The translations under genes and the position numbers were made by a program. Positions 22,089 through 40,573 of a stretch of 40,578 nucleotides of DNA are shown one piece after another. This stretch comes from Saprospiraceae bacterium (lineage in GTDB: Bacteria; Bacteroidota; Bacteroidia; Chitinophagales; Saprospiraceae). Where the stretch lies: contig JADLCC010000120.1 in NCBI GenBank assembly GCA_020847425.1, positions 1-40,578 of the forward strand, read 5' to 3'. Within the stretch, counting starts at the first letter, position 1; every line of letters starts with the position of its first letter. The notes beneath the pieces were generated by a model. The model saw nothing but the letters and a program-made list of their open reading frames with translations, was not told the DNA's origin and did not search any database.

Positions 22089-23483
22089 TTACATCTTCAC
22101 CACCGTTTGTTGTGCGGATCCTTCCGCGCAGGTGATCGTCAGGAAATAGGTCCCGGCCGGCAAATCCTGCACGTCAACGGTTGTGGCCCATTCCGTTCGG
22201 CCCGGATCGGCGCTTTGTTGCCGGAGCAGATGGCCCTGTGCGTCGTTGAGCAGCAGCAGAAAGTCGGCGGGTTTTACCGTTTTCACCCGAACGGTTAACC
22301 GATCGGAAACCGGGTTGGGGAAGCCGGACAGCTCCGCTTGCAGCGCTTGCCCCGAGAGGAGACCGGACAGGGGCGAACCGTTGTAGCGGTACATCCGGGT
22401 AGCGTGGTCGACGGGCTGCCATTCCCCGGCGTACCCGGCAGTCGGGCCGGCAAATGCCGCCCAACCCGCGAGTTCACCCGAGCCGATTTGTTGCCAGGTG
22501 GCGCCCATGTCTTTGCTCAACATCGTCACGAACGGTCCGGATACCGGATCGTCAAAATAAACCAGAACCAGAAATCCGGAGCCCGGTACTGCGACTAAAG
22601 AAGCCAGTTTGTGCTGCTTGTCGGGCAATACGGCATCCGTCCAGGTGGCGCCGCCATCCTGTGTGACCTGAAGCTGGAGTTCTTCGATCGTGAAATCAAA
22701 AGTGGCTACAGCGCCACGCGAAGTATCGGCAAAGGAAAAATAGACCAGGCTGTGCAAACCCGTTTCGAAAACTTCCCAATGCAACCCCTTGTCGGCCGAG
22801 CGAAACACGCGTCCGGGAACCGGCGTAGCCGAATAGGAAGAAGTTGTGAACCAGATGTACTGCCCATGTGCGCTGAAACTTGCCGCCAGGCCGTACTCAT
22901 CCGGCAGCGATGGGGGAATATTAGCCGCCGGGACGCGCGCCCAGGTTTGGCCGCCGTCGCCGGTGCGCCAGATTTCAAAAAAGAGGGTCGTGTCGGTGTC
23001 CGAAGCCGAAGGGTCGCCGCAGGCTATCCCGTTTTGCGCATCCCAAAAGTGGACGAAGTTGATGTATGACGTCGGTTGCTGAAACCCTTCCGTCAATTGG
23101 GGCGTCCAGGTTTGGCCGCCGTCAACGGTCCGGACGAGGTGGTTGCTGAAGTCCCCGTAATCCAGTCCGGCCACCCAGGCCGTATCGGCATGGATGGCGC
23201 TAACATTGCTGAACGACGGAACTTGTCCCATCAGCAGAATTCCGGCCGACCAGGTAGCGCCGCCATCGGTGGTGCGGACGTAGTACCCTTTGTCGGAGCC
23301 GGCCGGTTGGTAGCCGGCCGAGTCCACGAAGTATTTGATGGCCACGGCCCAGGCCGTATGTTCGTCCACGGCATCCAGCGCTTGGATCCCAACGGTATCG
23401 GGGATATTCGGGGTGAAGGCTTGCCATTGCGCAGCGAGTCGGAGGGAGAACAAGCAAAAAGCGAGGAGCAGAAGTTTTTTCAT
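22089..23483 (-). CDS. Secreted BNR-repeat protein with T9SS C-terminal sorting domain
   Basis: Signal peptide; RTTDGGATWSAG, RTVDGGQTWTPQ, RTGDGGQTWARV; C-term FPNPVSDRLTVRVK...LPAGTYFLTIT. Confidence 0.88.
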   Translation of the reverse strand: MKKLLLLAFCLFSLRLAAQWQAFTPNIPDTVGIQALDAVDEHTAWAVAIKYFVDSAGYQPAGSDKGYYVRTTDGGATWSAGILLMGQVPSFSNVSAIHADTAWVAGLDYGDFSNHLVRTVDGGQTWTPQLTEGFQQPTSYINFVHFWDAQNGIACGDPSASDTDTTLFFEIWRTGDGGQTWARVPAANIPPSLPDEYGLAASFSAHGQYIWFTTSSYSATPVPGRVFRSADKGLHWEVFETGLHSLVYFSFADTSRGAVATFDFTIEELQLQVTQDGGATWTDAVLPDKQHKLASLVAVPGSGFLVLVYFDDPVSGPFVTMLSKDMGATWQQIGSGELAGWAAFAGPTAGYAGEWQPVDHATRMYRYNGSPLSGLLSGQALQAELSGFPNPVSDRLTVRVKTVKPADFLLLLNDAQGHLLRQQSADPGRTEWATTVDVQDLPAGTYFLTITCAEGSAQQTVVKM

Positions 23484-23531: not shown

Positions 23532-23627
23532 GTTATTGTCGTGTCGGTGGAAAAGGTGAAGCCGAAGCCGACTTTTTTTCCAAAAAAAATTCCCGCTTGG
23601 CATCTCGTGCCAAGCGGGAATTCAAAA
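23532..23627. repeat. Intergenic module copy 2 (paired with 18545-18640)
   Basis: See copy 1. Confidence 0.75.
23588..23622 (-). terminator. Hairpin terminator of the CHAT gene
   Basis: AATTCCCGCTTGGCA-TCTCG-TGCCAAGCGGGAATT followed on the minus strand by a T run. Confidence 0.85.
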
Positions 23628-23649: not shown

Positions 23650-26600
23650 TCAATTACCCATTAATACAAATGCTCCCCACTGAAACGGGGTTTGGGTTTT
23701 CATTAAATCCAGTTGAGTCTGTCGAAAAGAATCGGGTATGGTTTTCTTGTCTTCCAACCAATGTCGATAGAAAGTGGTCATGAATTCCCGAGTGGCCTGG
23801 TCCTCCACTTCCCAAAGCGACATTACGATATAGTGCGCGCCTGCATACCGGAAGGCTCGTTGCATCCCGAACACACCTTCACCGTTTTCAATTTTGCCCA
23901 ACCCCGTGTTGCAAGCGCTAAGCACCACCAATTCAGTGCCTTCCAGGTTCAGGTTGGCAGCTTCGTAAGCGGTGAAAACACCATCGCCGATGGCCGGCGG
24001 CAAAGGCTGTTCGCGCAGGGTGTTGGTGGCGCCGGCGAAGAAGAGCATGGAACGAAGCATGGGGTTGTCTACGGTTTCTCGACGGTCAAACAGCAAATGT
24101 TCGCGCTTGGGGGACACCAAAAAATGACCATGGGTTGCCAAATGCAATACGCGGGGAGATGTAATTGATTTGATCTGCACCTCAGTGGCAGCAGTATCAA
24201 TCCATATCCGGGTCTGATATCCTTGCCTTTTGAGCAACTTCGACATCTCAATGATCTCCATTTCGCTGGCCGGCAAAGGCAAGAGCGAAAATGTAGAATC
24301 AGATAAAAAGGCACGCCAACTAACCCCTTCCGGGTTTACCGTTATGGCAAGCGGAGATGAAAAATCAAAGCGCGGATTGCCGACTAAAACAGCCGTTTTT
24401 TCTGAATGGCTCAAACTATCATTCGGGGGAATTAATAATTCCTCCATGCTTTGCAACACTCGAATGTCGTACACTTCCGATAAATATTTACCGTCTGTAC
24501 GCCGGAGAGTATTAAGGTTGATTTTATGAAAAATACCGTCAGGGGCCAGGTAAATAGTCTTTACACCTTTCAGGTAAGGATCAATTTTGCCCCAAAATCC
24601 GGCATAAACATCATGTGAAGGTGCTACACCGCGCCGCAAATCGGTTTGGTATTGCTCGATGAGAAAAGAATTTAAGTCGTTTCCGTTTTCCAGAATGAGC
24701 ATTTGGGGCTCGGGAGAATCGGGTTTAATAATGAAAATCGCATATCCCACACGATTCCCTTGATCAATTTTAGAAATTTTTTGCGAAAAACGAAATATAT
24801 CCACCATTACTTCATTGGGTTTAAGAAGGGCAGATAGTTTTGAATACGTAATATTTGAATTCACAGATGCCACCATGAAATAATAATTTCGCAATGCAAT
24901 TGCCTTTTCCAATTGAGTACTTTCTATCCTTAAACTATCCATTTTCAGGAAATACTGTTGGACTTTATTTGGTGGCAATGTAACGATACGCGATAGTTCT
25001 TCCTGATCAGATTTCCATTGTTGAAATAATTGAATTGAAAGTGAATCCGTGCTATTAAGAATCTTCGATTTTGCTTTTTTGGACAATGAAAATGCCAATC
25101 CTTTTCGAAAAAGCACATGCTCGTAAATCTTTCTTGGCGATTCCCGATTCGGCTGTTTTTGAGCAATTGCAATCTGTCTGTTGACTTTGTAAGCCAATTG
25201 CCCCAAAAGGCTTATTTGTTCGCGTTCAGGCAATATAAATAATCCATTTTTAATAAACAGAGTAGTTGTTTCAATATCATTTTGTATATCTTTGGCTGCA
25301 TTCTCCCAATCTTGCCTTTCAATATCAACCCAGACTTTTTGCGCTTTGGCAGTCTGAATGTTTTTACTGGTTTCACCAAAATTTTTAAGGGCAAACTCAA
25401 GCAAATCATCGGACATTGTACGAGAAAGTTCATAGTCTTCGCCCAATGAGCCGACAATAGAACAGGAAAGTAGAAAGTTGAAATAGGCCTGAGCATATCC
25501 ATCTTTTTCGATTGCATATTTCCCCTGGTTCTCTTTTAAAATACGCATAGCCCTATCCACCTGACCAAGTTTTGCCAGGCATTCGGCTTCTCCCCGCTTG
25601 CAATCTAAACACAGATTGTTATCTGGACCAAAAACTGGAACAGATGATTGTGCTGCCAATTGGTAATTTACTATTGCATCCTCATATTTCTGATAATAAT
25701 TTAGCGCAGCAGCATAATTAAATATACAGTCCCTGAAATAGTCAGGAGATCGAGTAGCATCTATGGATTCTAACAAGGTCTTCGCTTCAACAAAAGCCGC
25801 TAAGCATTTTACAGACTCCCCCAATTGAAAATAAGTTTGAGCCCGTTTTATTGATAACCTTGCATTTAGCGCTGTCTGAGCACCACTCATTGACTTCAAA
25901 ATCAATTCCATACTATCCACATAAACGAGCATCCTTACAAAGTCTCCCTGCAATTCAGCGACATTAAAAAGGGCATCTTGTATAGCAAATAGCGCATTTT
26001 TTGAGTTAAGATGCTCAAATAGTTGCTTTGCCTTAAAAAAATTTGCGTTTGCCTGGTCCAATAAATTGGTTTCATAAGCAATAATACCAAGGCTGTAAAT
26101 ACATCTGGCCTGATTAAAGGAGCCAGGATTAGTAGATTCCTCATGCGATATAACCCTTAGGAGCAAGTTTTTTTCCTGTTGATAAGATCCTTTTAAATGA
26201 TAGACAGGGGCCAGGTCAATCGCAATGGATATACTCAATACATGATCTATACCCAATACTTGATCACTGAGTAGAAGGGCTCGTTCAAAAGCATCCTTCG
26301 AAGTTTCCGTTTGACCTTTTTTGTTTAAAAATCGCCCTTTTCTGAAATAATAATAAGCACTTGCTTCAGAAGTCTCTTTCCCGGCTTTTTTTATCAATAA
26401 GTCAAGGCTCGCCAACCCATGTTCCAGACTATCTATTTGGGAAGTTATGTCCCACAAACGAAGCAATGTCTGCTGGGCGGCAATGTGATTATTACTTGTA
26501 TCTCCAAACCTCTCTAGAGCCAATTTACATACTTGCTCTGCGTACGATATGGCCCCTGTATAATTTTTAAGATTAAATAGAGAATCCCGCGAGTTTACCG

Positions 26601-26673
26601 CCTCTTCATAAGTTTGCCCAAAGGAGAAGTATCCCCAAAAAACAAGAGGTAATATAAATAAAGTCTTTTGCAT
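23650..26673 (-). CDS. Secreted TPR-CHAT domain protein (caspase-like peptidase family)
   Basis: Signal peptide MQKTLFILPLVFWGYFSFGQ; helical repeats; CHAT catalytic motifs VLHLATHGHF (His) and VVLSACNTGLG (Cys). Confidence 0.9.
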   Translation of the reverse strand: MQKTLFILPLVFWGYFSFGQTYEEAVNSRDSLFNLKNYTGAISYAEQVCKLALERFGDTSNNHIAAQQTLLRLWDITSQIDSLEHGLASLDLLIKKAGKETSEASAYYYFRKGRFLNKKGQTETSKDAFERALLLSDQVLGIDHVLSISIAIDLAPVYHLKGSYQQEKNLLLRVISHEESTNPGSFNQARCIYSLGIIAYETNLLDQANANFFKAKQLFEHLNSKNALFAIQDALFNVAELQGDFVRMLVYVDSMELILKSMSGAQTALNARLSIKRAQTYFQLGESVKCLAAFVEAKTLLESIDATRSPDYFRDCIFNYAAALNYYQKYEDAIVNYQLAAQSSVPVFGPDNNLCLDCKRGEAECLAKLGQVDRAMRILKENQGKYAIEKDGYAQAYFNFLLSCSIVGSLGEDYELSRTMSDDLLEFALKNFGETSKNIQTAKAQKVWVDIERQDWENAAKDIQNDIETTTLFIKNGLFILPEREQISLLGQLAYKVNRQIAIAQKQPNRESPRKIYEHVLFRKGLAFSLSKKAKSKILNSTDSLSIQLFQQWKSDQEELSRIVTLPPNKVQQYFLKMDSLRIESTQLEKAIALRNYYFMVASVNSNITYSKLSALLKPNEVMVDIFRFSQKISKIDQGNRVGYAIFIIKPDSPEPQMLILENGNDLNSFLIEQYQTDLRRGVAPSHDVYAGFWGKIDPYLKGVKTIYLAPDGIFHKINLNTLRRTDGKYLSEVYDIRVLQSMEELLIPPNDSLSHSEKTAVLVGNPRFDFSSPLAITVNPEGVSWRAFLSDSTFSLLPLPASEMEIIEMSKLLKRQGYQTRIWIDTAATEVQIKSITSPRVLHLATHGHFLVSPKREHLLFDRRETVDNPMLRSMLFFAGATNTLREQPLPPAIGDGVFTAYEAANLNLEGTELVVLSACNTGLGKIENGEGVFGMQRAFRYAGAHYIVMSLWEVEDQATREFMTTFYRHWLEDKKTIPDSFRQTQLDLMKTQTPFQWGAFVLMGN

Positions 26674-26706
26674 ACAAAGATGAATTAATATGGTAATTGG
26701 ACAAGA

Positions 26707-27573
26707 CTACTCTTTAATCTGCCCCAAAAGGCTGAAAGCAGCATCTCTTCTAGGATGATTGCCATTCCCAACAATACTCTCCAACGCTGCCCTTGCCGAC
26801 TCATCTTTGCCTTGCATCACAAATGCCAGTGCAAGTAGCCAATCTGCCTCATCAACTACTTTCCGGTCTCCCTGTCGCAACGGGAACAAGGCCTCCATTG
26901 CCGAAGCGGGTCGATGCAATTGAAGTAAGCAAGCCGCCCGGACCAATTCTGCCGAAGGTGTGGCTCCCTTGTCGGCAATCAGCCCTTCCAGGGTGCTGTA
27001 GTATTTATTGAAATCGCGTGCTTCCCAGTATTTATTCAGAACCGCCATGTTCATAAATGCGTAAGGGGAATAATTGGACAAAAAAGAGTCCGCGAGAGCG
27101 ATTCCCGCAGTCGGCAAGATCTCCTGAGCCGGCATGCTTCTGAATACCGGAGCTGTGGGGCCAGATATCGGATCAGGTCCGCGGGCAATGGGTTGCCGGG
27201 AAAGATCCCGAGGATTTTCCCTGGAAGGAGCCGGGGCCGGATTTTCTTTACTTTTCTCCCAGGGCTCGATTAGTTGATTATTCGGCGGAGCCTCCGGCTC
27301 ATGCTTGTACATTTTCCACCATACCAGCCCACCAATTCCCAATACACCTGCACATACCCAAATTGCAATCCACCACCGCCGCCGCCCGGCCCTTCTCCGC
27401 AACACCCCCTCCACCTGCCGCGACATCCCGACCCGCCGCAAGGCCTGCCAGGCGGGGCGCAATTGCTCCATCTCGGCCCGCAGATCCGGGTTTTCAGCCA
27501 GATCCCGCTCGAATCGGGCCCGCTCGGCCTCGGTCAATTCGTTGTTCAGATAGGCTTCTATATCAGGACGCAT
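26707..27573 (-). CDS. Single-pass membrane protein, anti-sigma-like, with C-terminal periplasmic helical region
   Basis: MRPDIEAYLNNELTEAERARFERDLAENPDLRAEMEQL resembles anti-sigma N-termini; RRRAGRRR then TM WWIAIWVCAGVLGIGGLVWW; overlaps the sigma gene by about 11 bp. Confidence 0.8.
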   Translation of the reverse strand: MRPDIEAYLNNELTEAERARFERDLAENPDLRAEMEQLRPAWQALRRVGMSRQVEGVLRRRAGRRRWWIAIWVCAGVLGIGGLVWWKMYKHEPEAPPNNQLIEPWEKSKENPAPAPSRENPRDLSRQPIARGPDPISGPTAPVFRSMPAQEILPTAGIALADSFLSNYSPYAFMNMAVLNKYWEARDFNKYYSTLEGLIADKGATPSAELVRAACLLQLHRPASAMEALFPLRQGDRKVVDEADWLLALAFVMQGKDESARAALESIVGNGNHPRRDAAFSLLGQIKE

Positions 27574-28264
27574 GTTGTTTTTGTTTCCAGTTTTCGGCAA
27601 TAGTGCTCAGTTTTTTCATACACTGGTAACGGGTCGATTTGAGCGAGTCCAACGATTTATAGGCGGTCATCTGCCGGTCGATCTGTTCCTGGTCGGAATA
27701 CCCCTCGAGGTACTTCAGGCGCACCAGGTCGCTACAGGGAGCACCCAGTTTTTTCAGCCAGCACCCGATCAGCTCGGCCTGTTCCTTCCGGTGCATTTTC
27801 CGGATCCAGTCATCATCCGGCAGGTCTATATCGGGATCAAGGGATACCGTTTGACGCCTCGAGTTTTTCCGCAACTCATTCGCCAGCAAATTCCGGCAAA
27901 CGGCTACCAGGTACGTCGTGGGCTGCGACCGTGCGGGATCGAATTCGCCATCGGCAATCTTTTCCAATACAAGAATTCCGGCATCGTGCAGCAGGTTGTC
28001 CACCAGTTCGCGTGACATCCCGCTTTCCCGCACCATCCGCCGTACCAAAGCCTCCGTTTTGGCAAAAAGATACTCGATGGCCGCGCTGTCCCTGCGGCGC
28101 AGGCCGTCCAACAGCACGCCTGGGTCGGCATACCGTCCCGGCTTGCCGGAGAACCATTTTTTGATGGTTTGGGAAAAATTCTGGTTCAAAGCGTCTTCCG
28201 GTTTATTGTCAAAAAGCGTTGTAAGGTAAAGAACAGCCCGTAAAATCAAAATCTTAATTCCCAA
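27563..28264 (-). CDS. RNA polymerase sigma-70 family (ECF-like) sigma factor
   Basis: LLHDAGILVLEKIADGEFDPARSQPTTYLVAVCRNLLANELRK (region 2-like) and C-terminal region-4-like LKYLEGYSDQEQIDRQM. Confidence 0.82.
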   Translation of the reverse strand: MGIKILILRAVLYLTTLFDNKPEDALNQNFSQTIKKWFSGKPGRYADPGVLLDGLRRRDSAAIEYLFAKTEALVRRMVRESGMSRELVDNLLHDAGILVLEKIADGEFDPARSQPTTYLVAVCRNLLANELRKNSRRQTVSLDPDIDLPDDDWIRKMHRKEQAELIGCWLKKLGAPCSDLVRLKYLEGYSDQEQIDRQMTAYKSLDSLKSTRYQCMKKLSTIAENWKQKQHAS

Positions 28265-28277
28265 ATCGCATTTCCCC

Positions 28278-28285
28278 TACCTTTG
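28278..28285 (+). promoter_or_regulatory. Bacteroidota -7 box TAnnTTTG (TACCTTTG)
   Basis: Lies 6 nt upstream of ATG 28292. Confidence 0.55.
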
Positions 28286-37950: not shown

Positions 37951-38131
37951 CTTCAAAACGCAATGTTCTGTTTTTCAGAATGTTGCGTTTTTGTTTTGGG
38001 AATAGTCGTGGTGCCTTCGGTTATTTTATGGCGTATTTCGGGTGGATTTTGACAGATTGAAGCAGAACCACTAAACCAGCAGGCAGGTGTATTTATTGGA
38101 TTCTCCTAAAGCAATGGGCCAACCAAAGGCG

Positions 38132-38181
38132 TATCCAACCATCCAACTCTCCAACCTTCCAACCATCTAACCATCTAACCT
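38132..38181. repeat. Period-8 tandem array (CYAACCNT)n
   Basis: atccaacc atccaact ctccaacc ttccaacc atctaacc atctaacc tt, abutting the stop codon at 38182. Confidence 0.85.
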
Positions 38182-39090
38182 TCATTCCTCCACCGCAAGC
38201 ACAAAATCAGCCGTGTGCACCTTGCCCTCCGTCTGAAATTGCATCCACATCCGGTATAAACCTGGTTTGGCAAAGGTGGTGTGCAGGTCAAAAGCCCCTG
38301 CTTGCACATCAGGGTGTACGTGCTCGTAGGTTTTATCCTCCAGCCCCACCAGCACTACGTGCGCTTTGGCGCCCAGGTAGTTTTCAAAGTCGCTCACATC
38401 CAGCGGCCGGCCGGCCTTTTTCACCTGGCCCGTAATGTGCAGTGCTTTGTTGGTCAGCCACTTACCGCCCATCGGAGTGAGGCTTACCTCGTAGCCATCC
38501 ACCAGCACAGTGGCCCGGGCTGCTGCATACGTCACTGGTTGTGGAGCCGGGCCGCTCACCCGCAGGGGTAGTTTTTCGACCTGGTGGCCAGCCCCGGCGG
38601 GCTTGTAGTCGGCAAACAGGAAATATTGTCCGCCCTGCGGGAAGGTGTAGGCCAGGTCCAATCCCGTGCCGTTGTACTCCGGGTGCTGGTGATCGAACCA
38701 GGACAGGTCCTCCGACACCAGAATCAGGTGCATTTTTTTCTCGTGTACCACATCCAAGGGCACCGCTTCACCCGGCTTGCCGGCGATACCCGGCGTAAAC
38801 CGAAGTTGGACTGGCTTCCCCGCTGCTACCGCTGCCGGTTCTGTAGCCAAGGCCACTACATACGTTTGGGCAGTCGCACCGGTCTGCACGGCCTGCAAAT
38901 CCATGTTACACACCGGACAAGTTCCCGGCTGCTCGTACAACTTGCCTTTTTCACAATCCATCGGACATTGGTACCGCGCGCCGGCCACCGCCGTTTGAGC
39001 CGCATCGGCATGTTGATGGGTGTGGCCTCCCTGACAAGACAAAAACCAGGCGGCAAAAAATACCACGGACAAAAACATTGAGTATTTCAT
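38182..39090 (-). CDS. Lipoprotein with heavy-metal-binding domain
   Basis: Lipobox-like FFAAWFLSCQGG; YQCPMDCEKGKLYEQPGTCPVCNMDLQ. Confidence 0.82.
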   Translation of the reverse strand: MKYSMFLSVVFFAAWFLSCQGGHTHQHADAAQTAVAGARYQCPMDCEKGKLYEQPGTCPVCNMDLQAVQTGATAQTYVVALATEPAAVAAGKPVQLRFTPGIAGKPGEAVPLDVVHEKKMHLILVSEDLSWFDHQHPEYNGTGLDLAYTFPQGGQYFLFADYKPAGAGHQVEKLPLRVSGPAPQPVTYAAARATVLVDGYEVSLTPMGGKWLTNKALHITGQVKKAGRPLDVSDFENYLGAKAHVVLVGLEDKTYEHVHPDVQAGAFDLHTTFAKPGLYRMWMQFQTEGKVHTADFVLAVEE

Positions 39091-39235: not shown

Positions 39236-39327
39236 GTTGCCTTCGTTGGCGTCCCGCCAACTACGTTCGAGATCCTGGCATGCCCTCGCTCCGCCGTTGC
39301 TGTTGGCGGGACGCCAACAGCAGCAAC
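39236..39327. repeat. Copy A of the interspersed hairpin element (about 92 bp, inverted ends)
   Basis: gttggcgtcccgccaac (39245-39261) and its exact reverse complement gttggcgggacgccaac (39302-39318); outer gttgc/gcaac extend the ends. Confidence 0.85.
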
Positions 39328-39340
39328 CACAACTACCCGA

Positions 39341-39496
39341 CCAACCCTCCAACTTTCCAACCCTCTAACCATACAACCTTCTAACCATACAACCCTCTAA
39401 CCATCCAACCTTCTAACCATCCAACCTTCTAACCTTCCAACCCTCTAACCTTCCAACCCTCTAACCATCCAACCTTCTAACCATCCAACCCTCCAA
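39341..39496. repeat. Period-8 tandem array (CYAACCNT), about 19-20 units
   Basis: ctaaccat ccaacctt ctaaccat ccaacctt ctaacctt ccaaccct ...; abuts the stop at 39497. Confidence 0.92.
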
Positions 39497-40573
39497 TCAT
39501 TGGTTGAAATACACCATTTTCAATTGATACGTGCCGGTCGTCACGTAGCGTTCGCCCGCTTCCAGGCCATTGGCCACGACGGTGGTGGTGCCGTTGTCGG
39601 CACCGGTTTTCAGGTACTGGAGCCGGTAGCGCTCGGCGCTGGTTTTGACAAAAACCGCCGGCATACCGCTGATTTCGGTGACGGCACTGTTGGGCACCAG
39701 CAAGGCGCGTTGGCTCTGTTGCTCGAAAATCCGGACGTTGACAAACTCGCCGATTTTGAAATCCCCGGCGGCATTGTCTACTTCAAACAGGGCGATTTGC
39801 GATTGGTTGGTCGGGTTGATGCTGTTGGGCATGGCCAGGAGCCGGATCTGGCGGCTCTGATGCTCGTTGTTGGAACATTCGATCTGAAAATCCCGCGCCG
39901 CATGGAGGATCTCGGCGTCTTTGTCGTACAACTGGGCTTCCACGATCACTTTAGCCGGATTGAGCAACACAAACAGTGTTTCGCCGGCATTCACCGTGGC
40001 GCCCGGCGCTCGCGAAAACGGCTCCACCCGGCCGCTGATCGGCGCTCGAAGGCTGAAAAACCGGACATTCTGCGCTCGAGCCTCGCCATACAAGCGCTGG
40101 AACAAATCGTGGTTCTCCCGGGCGCGTTGCAGGCGAGCCCTTGCTTCGTCGAGATCGCGTTGCGCAATGATGTCTTTCAGGCTACTCAGGCGGTCCACCG
40201 CCTGTTGGGCTGCACCCTCTTCTGCCACCACCGCATTTTGCTCACTCTGCCAATCGACCTGCGTGCCGGCATCCACGCTTTGCTCCACCACTGCGAGTAC
40301 CTGCCCTGCCCGCACCGTCTCCCCAACTCGGACCCGCACGGAGCGCAAGGTGCCGGCCAACGGCGATTGTACCGTGGCTTTGCCCATTGCCCCCGGCACC
40401 ACTGTGCCAAACAAGGTGATCGTGGGCGTAAATCGATCCACCCCCGCCCGGGCAATGGTCACGTCGAACAAAAACTGCGTTTCCTTGGGAATCAGAATTT
40501 CCGAGGCAAATCCATTCCTTTTTTCATCGTGTTCCTCGTCACCATGTGCCAACGCCGCATGCCGATCGGGCAA
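39497..40573 (-). CDS. Efflux RND transporter periplasmic adaptor subunit (CusB/HlyD-like), likely 5'-partial at the window edge
   Basis: GKATVQSPLAGTLRSVRVRVGETVRAGQVLAVVEQ (lipoyl-like), LRAPISGRVEPFSRAPGATVNAGETLFVL. Confidence 0.85.
   Translation of the reverse strand: MPDRHAALAHGDEEHDEKRNGFASEILIPKETQFLFDVTIARAGVDRFTPTITLFGTVVPGAMGKATVQSPLAGTLRSVRVRVGETVRAGQVLAVVEQSVDAGTQVDWQSEQNAVVAEEGAAQQAVDRLSSLKDIIAQRDLDEARARLQRARENHDLFQRLYGEARAQNVRFFSLRAPISGRVEPFSRAPGATVNAGETLFVLLNPAKVIVEAQLYDKDAEILHAARDFQIECSNNEHQSRQIRLLAMPNSINPTNQSQIALFEVDNAAGDFKIGEFVNVRIFEQQSQRALLVPNSAVTEISGMPAVFVKTSAERYRLQYLKTGADNGTTTVVANGLEAGERYVTTGTYQLKMVYFNQ

Follow-up and report, generated by a model that had tools for sequence, protein, structure and literature searches.

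Three adjoining genes on the minus strand (28264→23650) of the window, i.e., the whole 40,578-nt stretch of Saprospiraceae DNA analysed here, encode an ECF sigma factor, a secreted TPR-CHAT protein and, in between and overlapping the sigma gene, a single-pass membrane protein that resembles an anti-sigma factor (ASF). Both the presence of this set and its recurrence are solid. A functional link between CHAT and the sigma/ASF pair on the periplasmic side is likely, and the best single mechanism, to which we assign a probability of about 0.5, would be an envelope-facing sigma/anti-sigma switch gated by a caspase-like CHAT protease that makes the activating cut. In such a switch, the N-terminal domain of the ASF would keep the ECF sigma factor bound at the inner membrane, and the exported TPR-CHAT protein would meet the ASF ectodomain in the periplasm. 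The TPR superhelix would probably act as the sensor of the trigger signal. The CHAT protease would then cut first, either in the linker of the ASF or in its ectodomain, and a general intramembrane protease (M50, RseP kind) would finish the process, with the sigma factor being freed. We prefer this mechanism because the linkage between CHAT and sigma genes exceeds chance and is kept through changes of gene order in the source genome, in its family and in an isolate of another group; because the topologies match, the catalytic dyad is kept, and the sigma factor co-varies with the N-terminal domain of the ASF, as does the ectodomain with CHAT; and because a fused trypsin-like protease occurs in the same sigma/ASF family, DdvA offers a precedent, and the genome encodes M50 proteases.

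The preliminary description of this DNA had proposed three co-oriented, packed genes for an ECF-like sigma factor, a TM protein and a TPR-CHAT protein, and gene calls and domain matches place all three on the minus strand exactly where it had put them (Table 1). The stretch 28264-23587 looks like one three-gene operon, because a strong hairpin resembling a terminator lies just beyond the CHAT stop and the upstream neighbour of the sigma gene (an ABC transporter by its reading), at 28283, runs in the opposite direction. Downstream of the operon, past the terminator, lies a gene for a BNR-repeat protein with a T9SS sorting tail (TIGR04183; window 22089-23483), and other T9SS-tail proteins are also encoded in the window. 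Minisatellite arrays with an 8-nt unit (CTAACCAT/CCAACCTT) are found at 38103-38182 and 39317-39524; shorter ones are present at 2047-2330 and 1782-1900.

Table 1. Features of the three-gene set, its counterparts in the source genome, and trypsin-like relatives of the ASF in other Bacteroidia
Feature	Position	Strand	Basis or remark
ECF sigma factor, 233 aa as called	27563..28264	minus	TIGR02937 match
Whole ASF gene, 288 aa	26707..27573	minus	Counted from ATG; 11-nt overlap with sigma gene
ASF anti-sigma-like N-terminal domain, residues 1-66, predicted cytoplasmic	27376..27573	minus	NF052375, AlphaFold helices, sigma co-variation
ASF single TM segment, residues 67-85, RRRAGRRR just before	27319..27375	minus	Hydropathy
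ASF proline-rich linker, residues 86-154, predicted disordered; candidate cleavage region	27112..27318	minus	AlphaFold
ASF TPR-like helical ectodomain, residues 155-287, predicted periplasmic	26713..27111	minus	AlphaFold helices, fold matches
Whole TPR-CHAT gene, 1007 aa	23650..26673	minus	
TPR-CHAT signal peptide, residues 1-19	26617..26673	minus	Home-made Sec rule
TPR superhelix, residues 20 to about 510	25144..26616	minus	PF13424 E=1.4e-14; all-helical in model
CHAT peptidase domain, residues 690-1007	23653..24606	minus	PF12770 E=1.7e-58; fold matches separase, Csx29, DdvA
Catalytic His848 (ATHGH)	24130..24132	minus	Aligned with sigma-linked CHATs
Catalytic Cys921 (SACNTG)	23911..23913	minus	Aligned with sigma-linked CHATs
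Terminator-like hairpin, 16 pairs + T run, ends three-gene unit	23587..23623	minus	Just past CHAT stop
Co-oriented triads, source genome	C120 (= window), C245, C361, C524, C25		
Divergent triads, source genome	C421, C358		
Convergent triads, source genome	C283, C170, C71		
ASFs with fused trypsin-like ectodomain, other Bacteroidia	L205:5542-6684, L217:3868-4959, L215:5539-6573, L222:3902-5032		Trypsin_2

The first gene encodes an ECF-like sigma factor, as had been proposed: the protein falls among the ECF sigma factors (sigma2 and sigma4 regions, TIGR02937), reaching 49.4 bits with the sigma70-ECF model against a cut-off of 42.9 (E=3.9e-13); in Pfam, region 2 is slightly below the cut-off and region 4 is unmatched. 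The called TTG start is uncertain, and the real start probably lies further in. A profile (A5) of 31 sigma factors from triads, i.e., sets of sigma, ASF and CHAT genes, matches the solved ECF sigma factors SigW, SigH and RpoE with E values from 4e-23 to 3e-18.

The ASF shows several features expected of a membrane anti-sigma factor, namely a co-encoded sigma factor, one TM segment, a positive-inside arrangement and co-variation with sigma, and its library matches to anti-sigma models are weak and all below cut-offs. NF052375 (anti-sigma factor) aligns with residues 6-45 at E=2e-8, below its curated cut-off, and is matched by 14 of the 30 ASFs of the triad set. The TM segment at residues 67-85 is preceded by VLRRRAGRRRWW. 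According to our own simple hydropathy-type rules, used in place of a dedicated TM predictor, a single TM segment is called in each of the 30 ASFs tested; the N-terminal domain before it comprises 65-115 residues in 29 of them (L165 as called has an extra N-terminal reading frame), and K/R residues average 4.3 before vs. 1.2 after the segment, the arrangement being positive-inside (N-in/C-out) in 28/30. The single pass, the orientation and the overlap with the sigma gene suggested earlier are thus all upheld.

In the AlphaFold model of the ASF (pLDDT 80.9), a helical N-terminal domain (residues 1-40 form helices with pLDDT >90) is followed by a long membrane helix, a disordered linker (pLDDT <50 for most of residues 95-147) and a TPR-like ectodomain, which is helical from residue 181 onward with pLDDT mostly >90. 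TPR domains are the best fold matches of the ectodomain, none of them at E <0.001, and TPR Pfam models are found in up to 14 of the 30 ASFs. A beta-rich-looking ectodomain (..PGLYYYxIE..KFxVK) replaces the TPR-like one in five of the 30 CHAT-linked ASFs (L013, L018, L084, L171 and L200). The model makes the proline-rich linker a candidate region for cleavage. An FxxYYxPY-like motif after the TM segment was rejected as a cleavage site, as it is also present in ASFs without a CHAT neighbour. When iterated, the profile of the ASF strayed into TPR proteins; a profile of the N-terminal domain took its place.

The third protein matches TPR_12 (PF13424; E=1e-14), and its N-terminus, MQKTLFILPLVFWGYFSFG followed by QTYE, reads as a signal peptide by a home-made Sec rule rather than SignalP. 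Its AlphaFold model (pLDDT 80.1, pTM 0.71) consists of a TPR superhelix and a caspase-like domain. The protein belongs to the CHAT peptidases (PF12770, His/Cys dyad), and the His (ATHGH) and Cys (SACNTG) motifs, initially noted as intact, prove to be conserved across sigma-linked CHATs (His in 48/48 readable and Cys in 49/49 examined copies). The dyad is, however, a family hallmark, and thus its conservation does not single out the ASF as the substrate. By our simple rules, a signal-like N-terminus is found in nearly all CHATs with a readable start, and a C-terminal TM segment in about half. The signal peptide had been taken to put CHAT on the same side as the C-terminal region of the ASF; sequence-based topology across the set agrees, and CHAT and the ASF ectodomain are predicted to share one side of the membrane.

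A PF12770 search of the 5.9 Mb source assembly revealed 16 CHAT places, one of them doubtful, and there are 36 sigma matches; both families are highly expanded. A sigma+ASF pair adjoins 10 of the 15 clear CHAT loci, a recurrence within the genome that the preliminary description had missed; the remaining five are truncated by a contig end on one or both sides. Identity between the copies is no more than about 15-30%, and the association is thus an old one. On C358, the divergent sigma and CHAT genes are separated by a gene (L022:3305-5068) whose 587-aa product is secreted and has a TM segment at its C-terminus. The divergent gene beside CHAT on C531 matched the sigma profile but reads as a LuxR-type HTH protein and was discarded.

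Within the family, CHAT is present in 39 of 41 genomes, with up to 27 copies each, and triads L026 and L084 also belong to Saprospiraceae. Among the matches listed (source genome excluded), at least 59 of 139 sigma genes, from 19 genomes, have a listed CHAT gene no more than 6 kb away; 26 of these linked sigmas are convergent, 25 divergent and only eight co-oriented, and hence the operon order of the window is a minority form. In three genomes the CHAT list is complete, and there a sigma gene is linked to 16 of the 46 CHATs vs. 3.7 expected by a simple estimate from sigma density (P=3e-7), with strong differences between genomes (7/13, 8/19 and 1/14); about two thirds of the CHAT genes in these genomes have no adjoining sigma. 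Similar estimates of chance are available for four isolate genomes that we take to be Cytophagales: linkage is in excess in Catalimonadaceae JC749 (6/10 CHATs, P=2e-5) and Parachryseolinea silvisoli (3/6, P=0.008) and within chance in Chryseosolibacter histidini (2/8) and Chryseotalea sanaruensis (1/8). The preliminary description would have been refuted by a lack of conserved co-occurrence of sigma, TM and TPR-CHAT genes across genomes; such co-occurrence is found, and the proposal passes this check. A sigma gene lies near just a few of the best 80 CHAT relatives in GTDB; for this reason, the idea that TPR-CHAT proteins are generally sigma-linked was dropped, and the linkage is a lineage feature, not a CHAT-wide rule.

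It might be argued that the sigma/ASF pairs and CHAT are neighbours without a shared pathway, co-travelling on rearranging multi-copy gene islands, as both families are greatly expanded in the source genome and gene order is variable. However, this explanation has to contend with the excess over local density, the recurrence in other groups, the matched topology and the co-variation of the parts, and we regard it as very improbable.

Co-variation was assessed across 29 triads. The distances of sigma and of the ASF N-terminal domain are correlated (Mantel r=0.64), which is what a bound pair would lead one to expect. The ASF ectodomain is correlated with the CHAT domain at r=0.29, compared with 0.18 for sigma and 0.16 for its own N-terminal domain; when sigma and the N-terminal domain are controlled for, the partial r is 0.26 (P=3e-4), a modest effect, and one corrected only in part for shared descent. 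When the calculation is confined to the 25 TPR-type ASFs, r is 0.26 (P=1e-3), and the ectodomain also tracks sigma (0.33). Partners are occasionally swapped among triads (L163). Co-variation between the ectodomain and CHAT is a prediction of contact between them, but it requires contact, not cleavage. Thus, CHAT might instead serve as a periplasmic co-sensor that binds the ectodomain and holds or releases sigma without cutting, with the protease acting elsewhere or on itself. Most ASF ectodomains are TPR-like, i.e., of a binding fold, and the CHAT domain of DdvA lies within the anti-sigma protein itself. Nonetheless, every readable sigma-linked copy keeps both His and Cys, and the fused trypsin-like protease in other branches points to proteolysis, which makes a non-cutting CHAT a rather doubtful alternative.

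The same co-variation would be left unexplained if CHAT were an output of the system, i.e., if sigma switched on the CHAT gene, the secreted protease worked elsewhere and the ASF ectodomain alone acted as the sensor. Sigma and CHAT probably share a transcript in the gene order of the window, and autoregulation of their own locus is common among ECF sigma factors. However, no shared sigma/CHAT promoter was found at 12 loci with a separate CHAT promoter, where the sigma and CHAT upstream regions were no more alike within a locus than between loci (11.25 vs. 11.23, P=0.53, a weak test). We consider this role of CHAT unlikely and continue to favour a CHAT protease that would make the activating cut in the ASF.

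The wider sigma/ASF family is relevant to the proposed protease-gated switch. The triad-sigma profile matches nearly all Bacteroidia sampled, and at the best 40 loci outside the source genome, a candidate ASF with one TM segment comes after nearly every sigma, with CHAT occurring at only five of the 40 loci; TPR-type ASFs without CHAT alongside are found as well (L211, L232). A trypsin-like GNSG motif is present in the ASF ectodomain at 13 of the 40 sampled loci, and the four of these that were scanned with Pfam all contain Trypsin_2 (E 8e-23 to 4e-29). Two tandem sigma/ASF sets include ASFs with a cytochrome c-like ectodomain (L233:4494-7367 and L233:10856-13195; CxxCH, PF00034 in the one scanned), which could possibly sense redox or haem. 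Because the ASF ectodomains of one sigma/ASF family vary between TPR, trypsin-like and cytochrome c-like forms, it appears that one and the same switch in the cytoplasm is coupled to a variety of external modules, two kinds of protease included.

Among known systems, the TPR-CHAT model is matched by Foldseek to separase, Csx29 (E 4e-10) and DdvA (E 2e-10, over most of its length). DdvA is also the sole significant sequence match of the CHAT-domain profile in the PDB (E=4e-6, residues 831-975, LATHGK and AACEGG), with Csx29 chains behind it at E of only about 0.04. DdvA has been described as the anti-sigma factor of DdvS in Myxococcus xanthus, with an unknown inactivating signal (PMC4374960). 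DdvS-DdvA (DdvA structures 8rot, 8rw5) resembles the present set in that an ECF sigma factor is paired with a transmembrane anti-sigma factor whose chain includes a CHAT domain, His and Cys being in place. However, DdvA unites anti-sigma and TPR-CHAT parts in one 991-aa chain, whereas here the ASF and TPR-CHAT are separate proteins from separate genes, each with a part not shared by the other: a signal peptide in CHAT and an ectodomain of TPR or beta type in the ASF; a search for fused forms gave no anti-sigma-domain match on any of 188 Bacteroidota CHAT ORFs. Judging from the PDB-profile match, the fold match and the published description, DdvA is the closest known relative of the module, in which the DdvA arrangement is divided between two proteins.

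Type III-E Craspase, to which the locus had initially been likened, likewise brings together a protease of the TPR-CHAT type, an ECF-like sigma factor and an inhibitor of sigma; its Csx29 and Csx30 act together with a CRISPR effector and are not envelope proteins (PMC10028731). This parallel is confined to the three roles (Csx29, Csx30 and CASP-sigma); Csx29 is a fold match, but sequence and fold put DdvA closer. Unlike in Craspase, CHAT is secreted here, bearing a signal peptide, and the inhibitor is membrane-bound; moreover, no credible match to CRISPR or defence families was found on the three genes of the operon, and no CRISPR-like array within the window. By sequence and model, the module seems nearer to a split DdvA than to Craspase. 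Within our partial coverage of the literature, only the Csx29 paper was found to join a CHAT domain with anti-sigma function.

The proposed logic of a periplasmic site-1 cut and a membrane site-2 cut would be that of RseA/sigmaE and RsiW/sigmaW, which also have a single-pass N-in/C-out anti-sigma factor, and M50 site-2-type (RseP-kind) protease genes are present in the source genome. In contrast to these systems, the proposed cut at site 1 would fall not to DegS or PrsW but to a genetically linked caspase-like enzyme specific to its locus. ECF54 sigma factors have CHAT-domain genes in their genetic context, with proteolytic control proposed, and are described without an anti-sigma factor (PMC8999054); they share CHAT-domain neighbours with the present sets, in which, however, the membrane ASF is found in all triads examined.

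As about two thirds of the CHATs in the three fully listed genomes have no adjoining sigma and other Bacteroidota CHATs are mostly without one, CHAT has other uses besides sigma control. Tentatively, and at odds somewhat below even, Bacteroidota of more than one family might run large parallel sets of CRISPR-free, envelope-facing caspase-sigma switches, in which each secreted TPR-CHAT would cut its own ASF, and one sigma/ASF family might have taken up different proteases again and again, both in cis (trypsin-like) and in trans (CHAT). The module occurs in named cultured strains and is thus amenable to experiment. Recognised anti-sigma factors have been reported beside 6% of Bacteroidetes ECF sigma genes, compared with 32% over all phyla (PMC7406223), and the proteins described here may help to account for this scarcity. 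The secreted TPR-CHAT proteins of Bacteroidota, which are very common and poorly understood, gain a natural partner and a candidate substrate. If the proposed switch is true, caspase-like control of sigma factors would be a general means of signalling at the envelope rather than something peculiar to CRISPR, and type III-E Craspase would represent a single application of an older principle.
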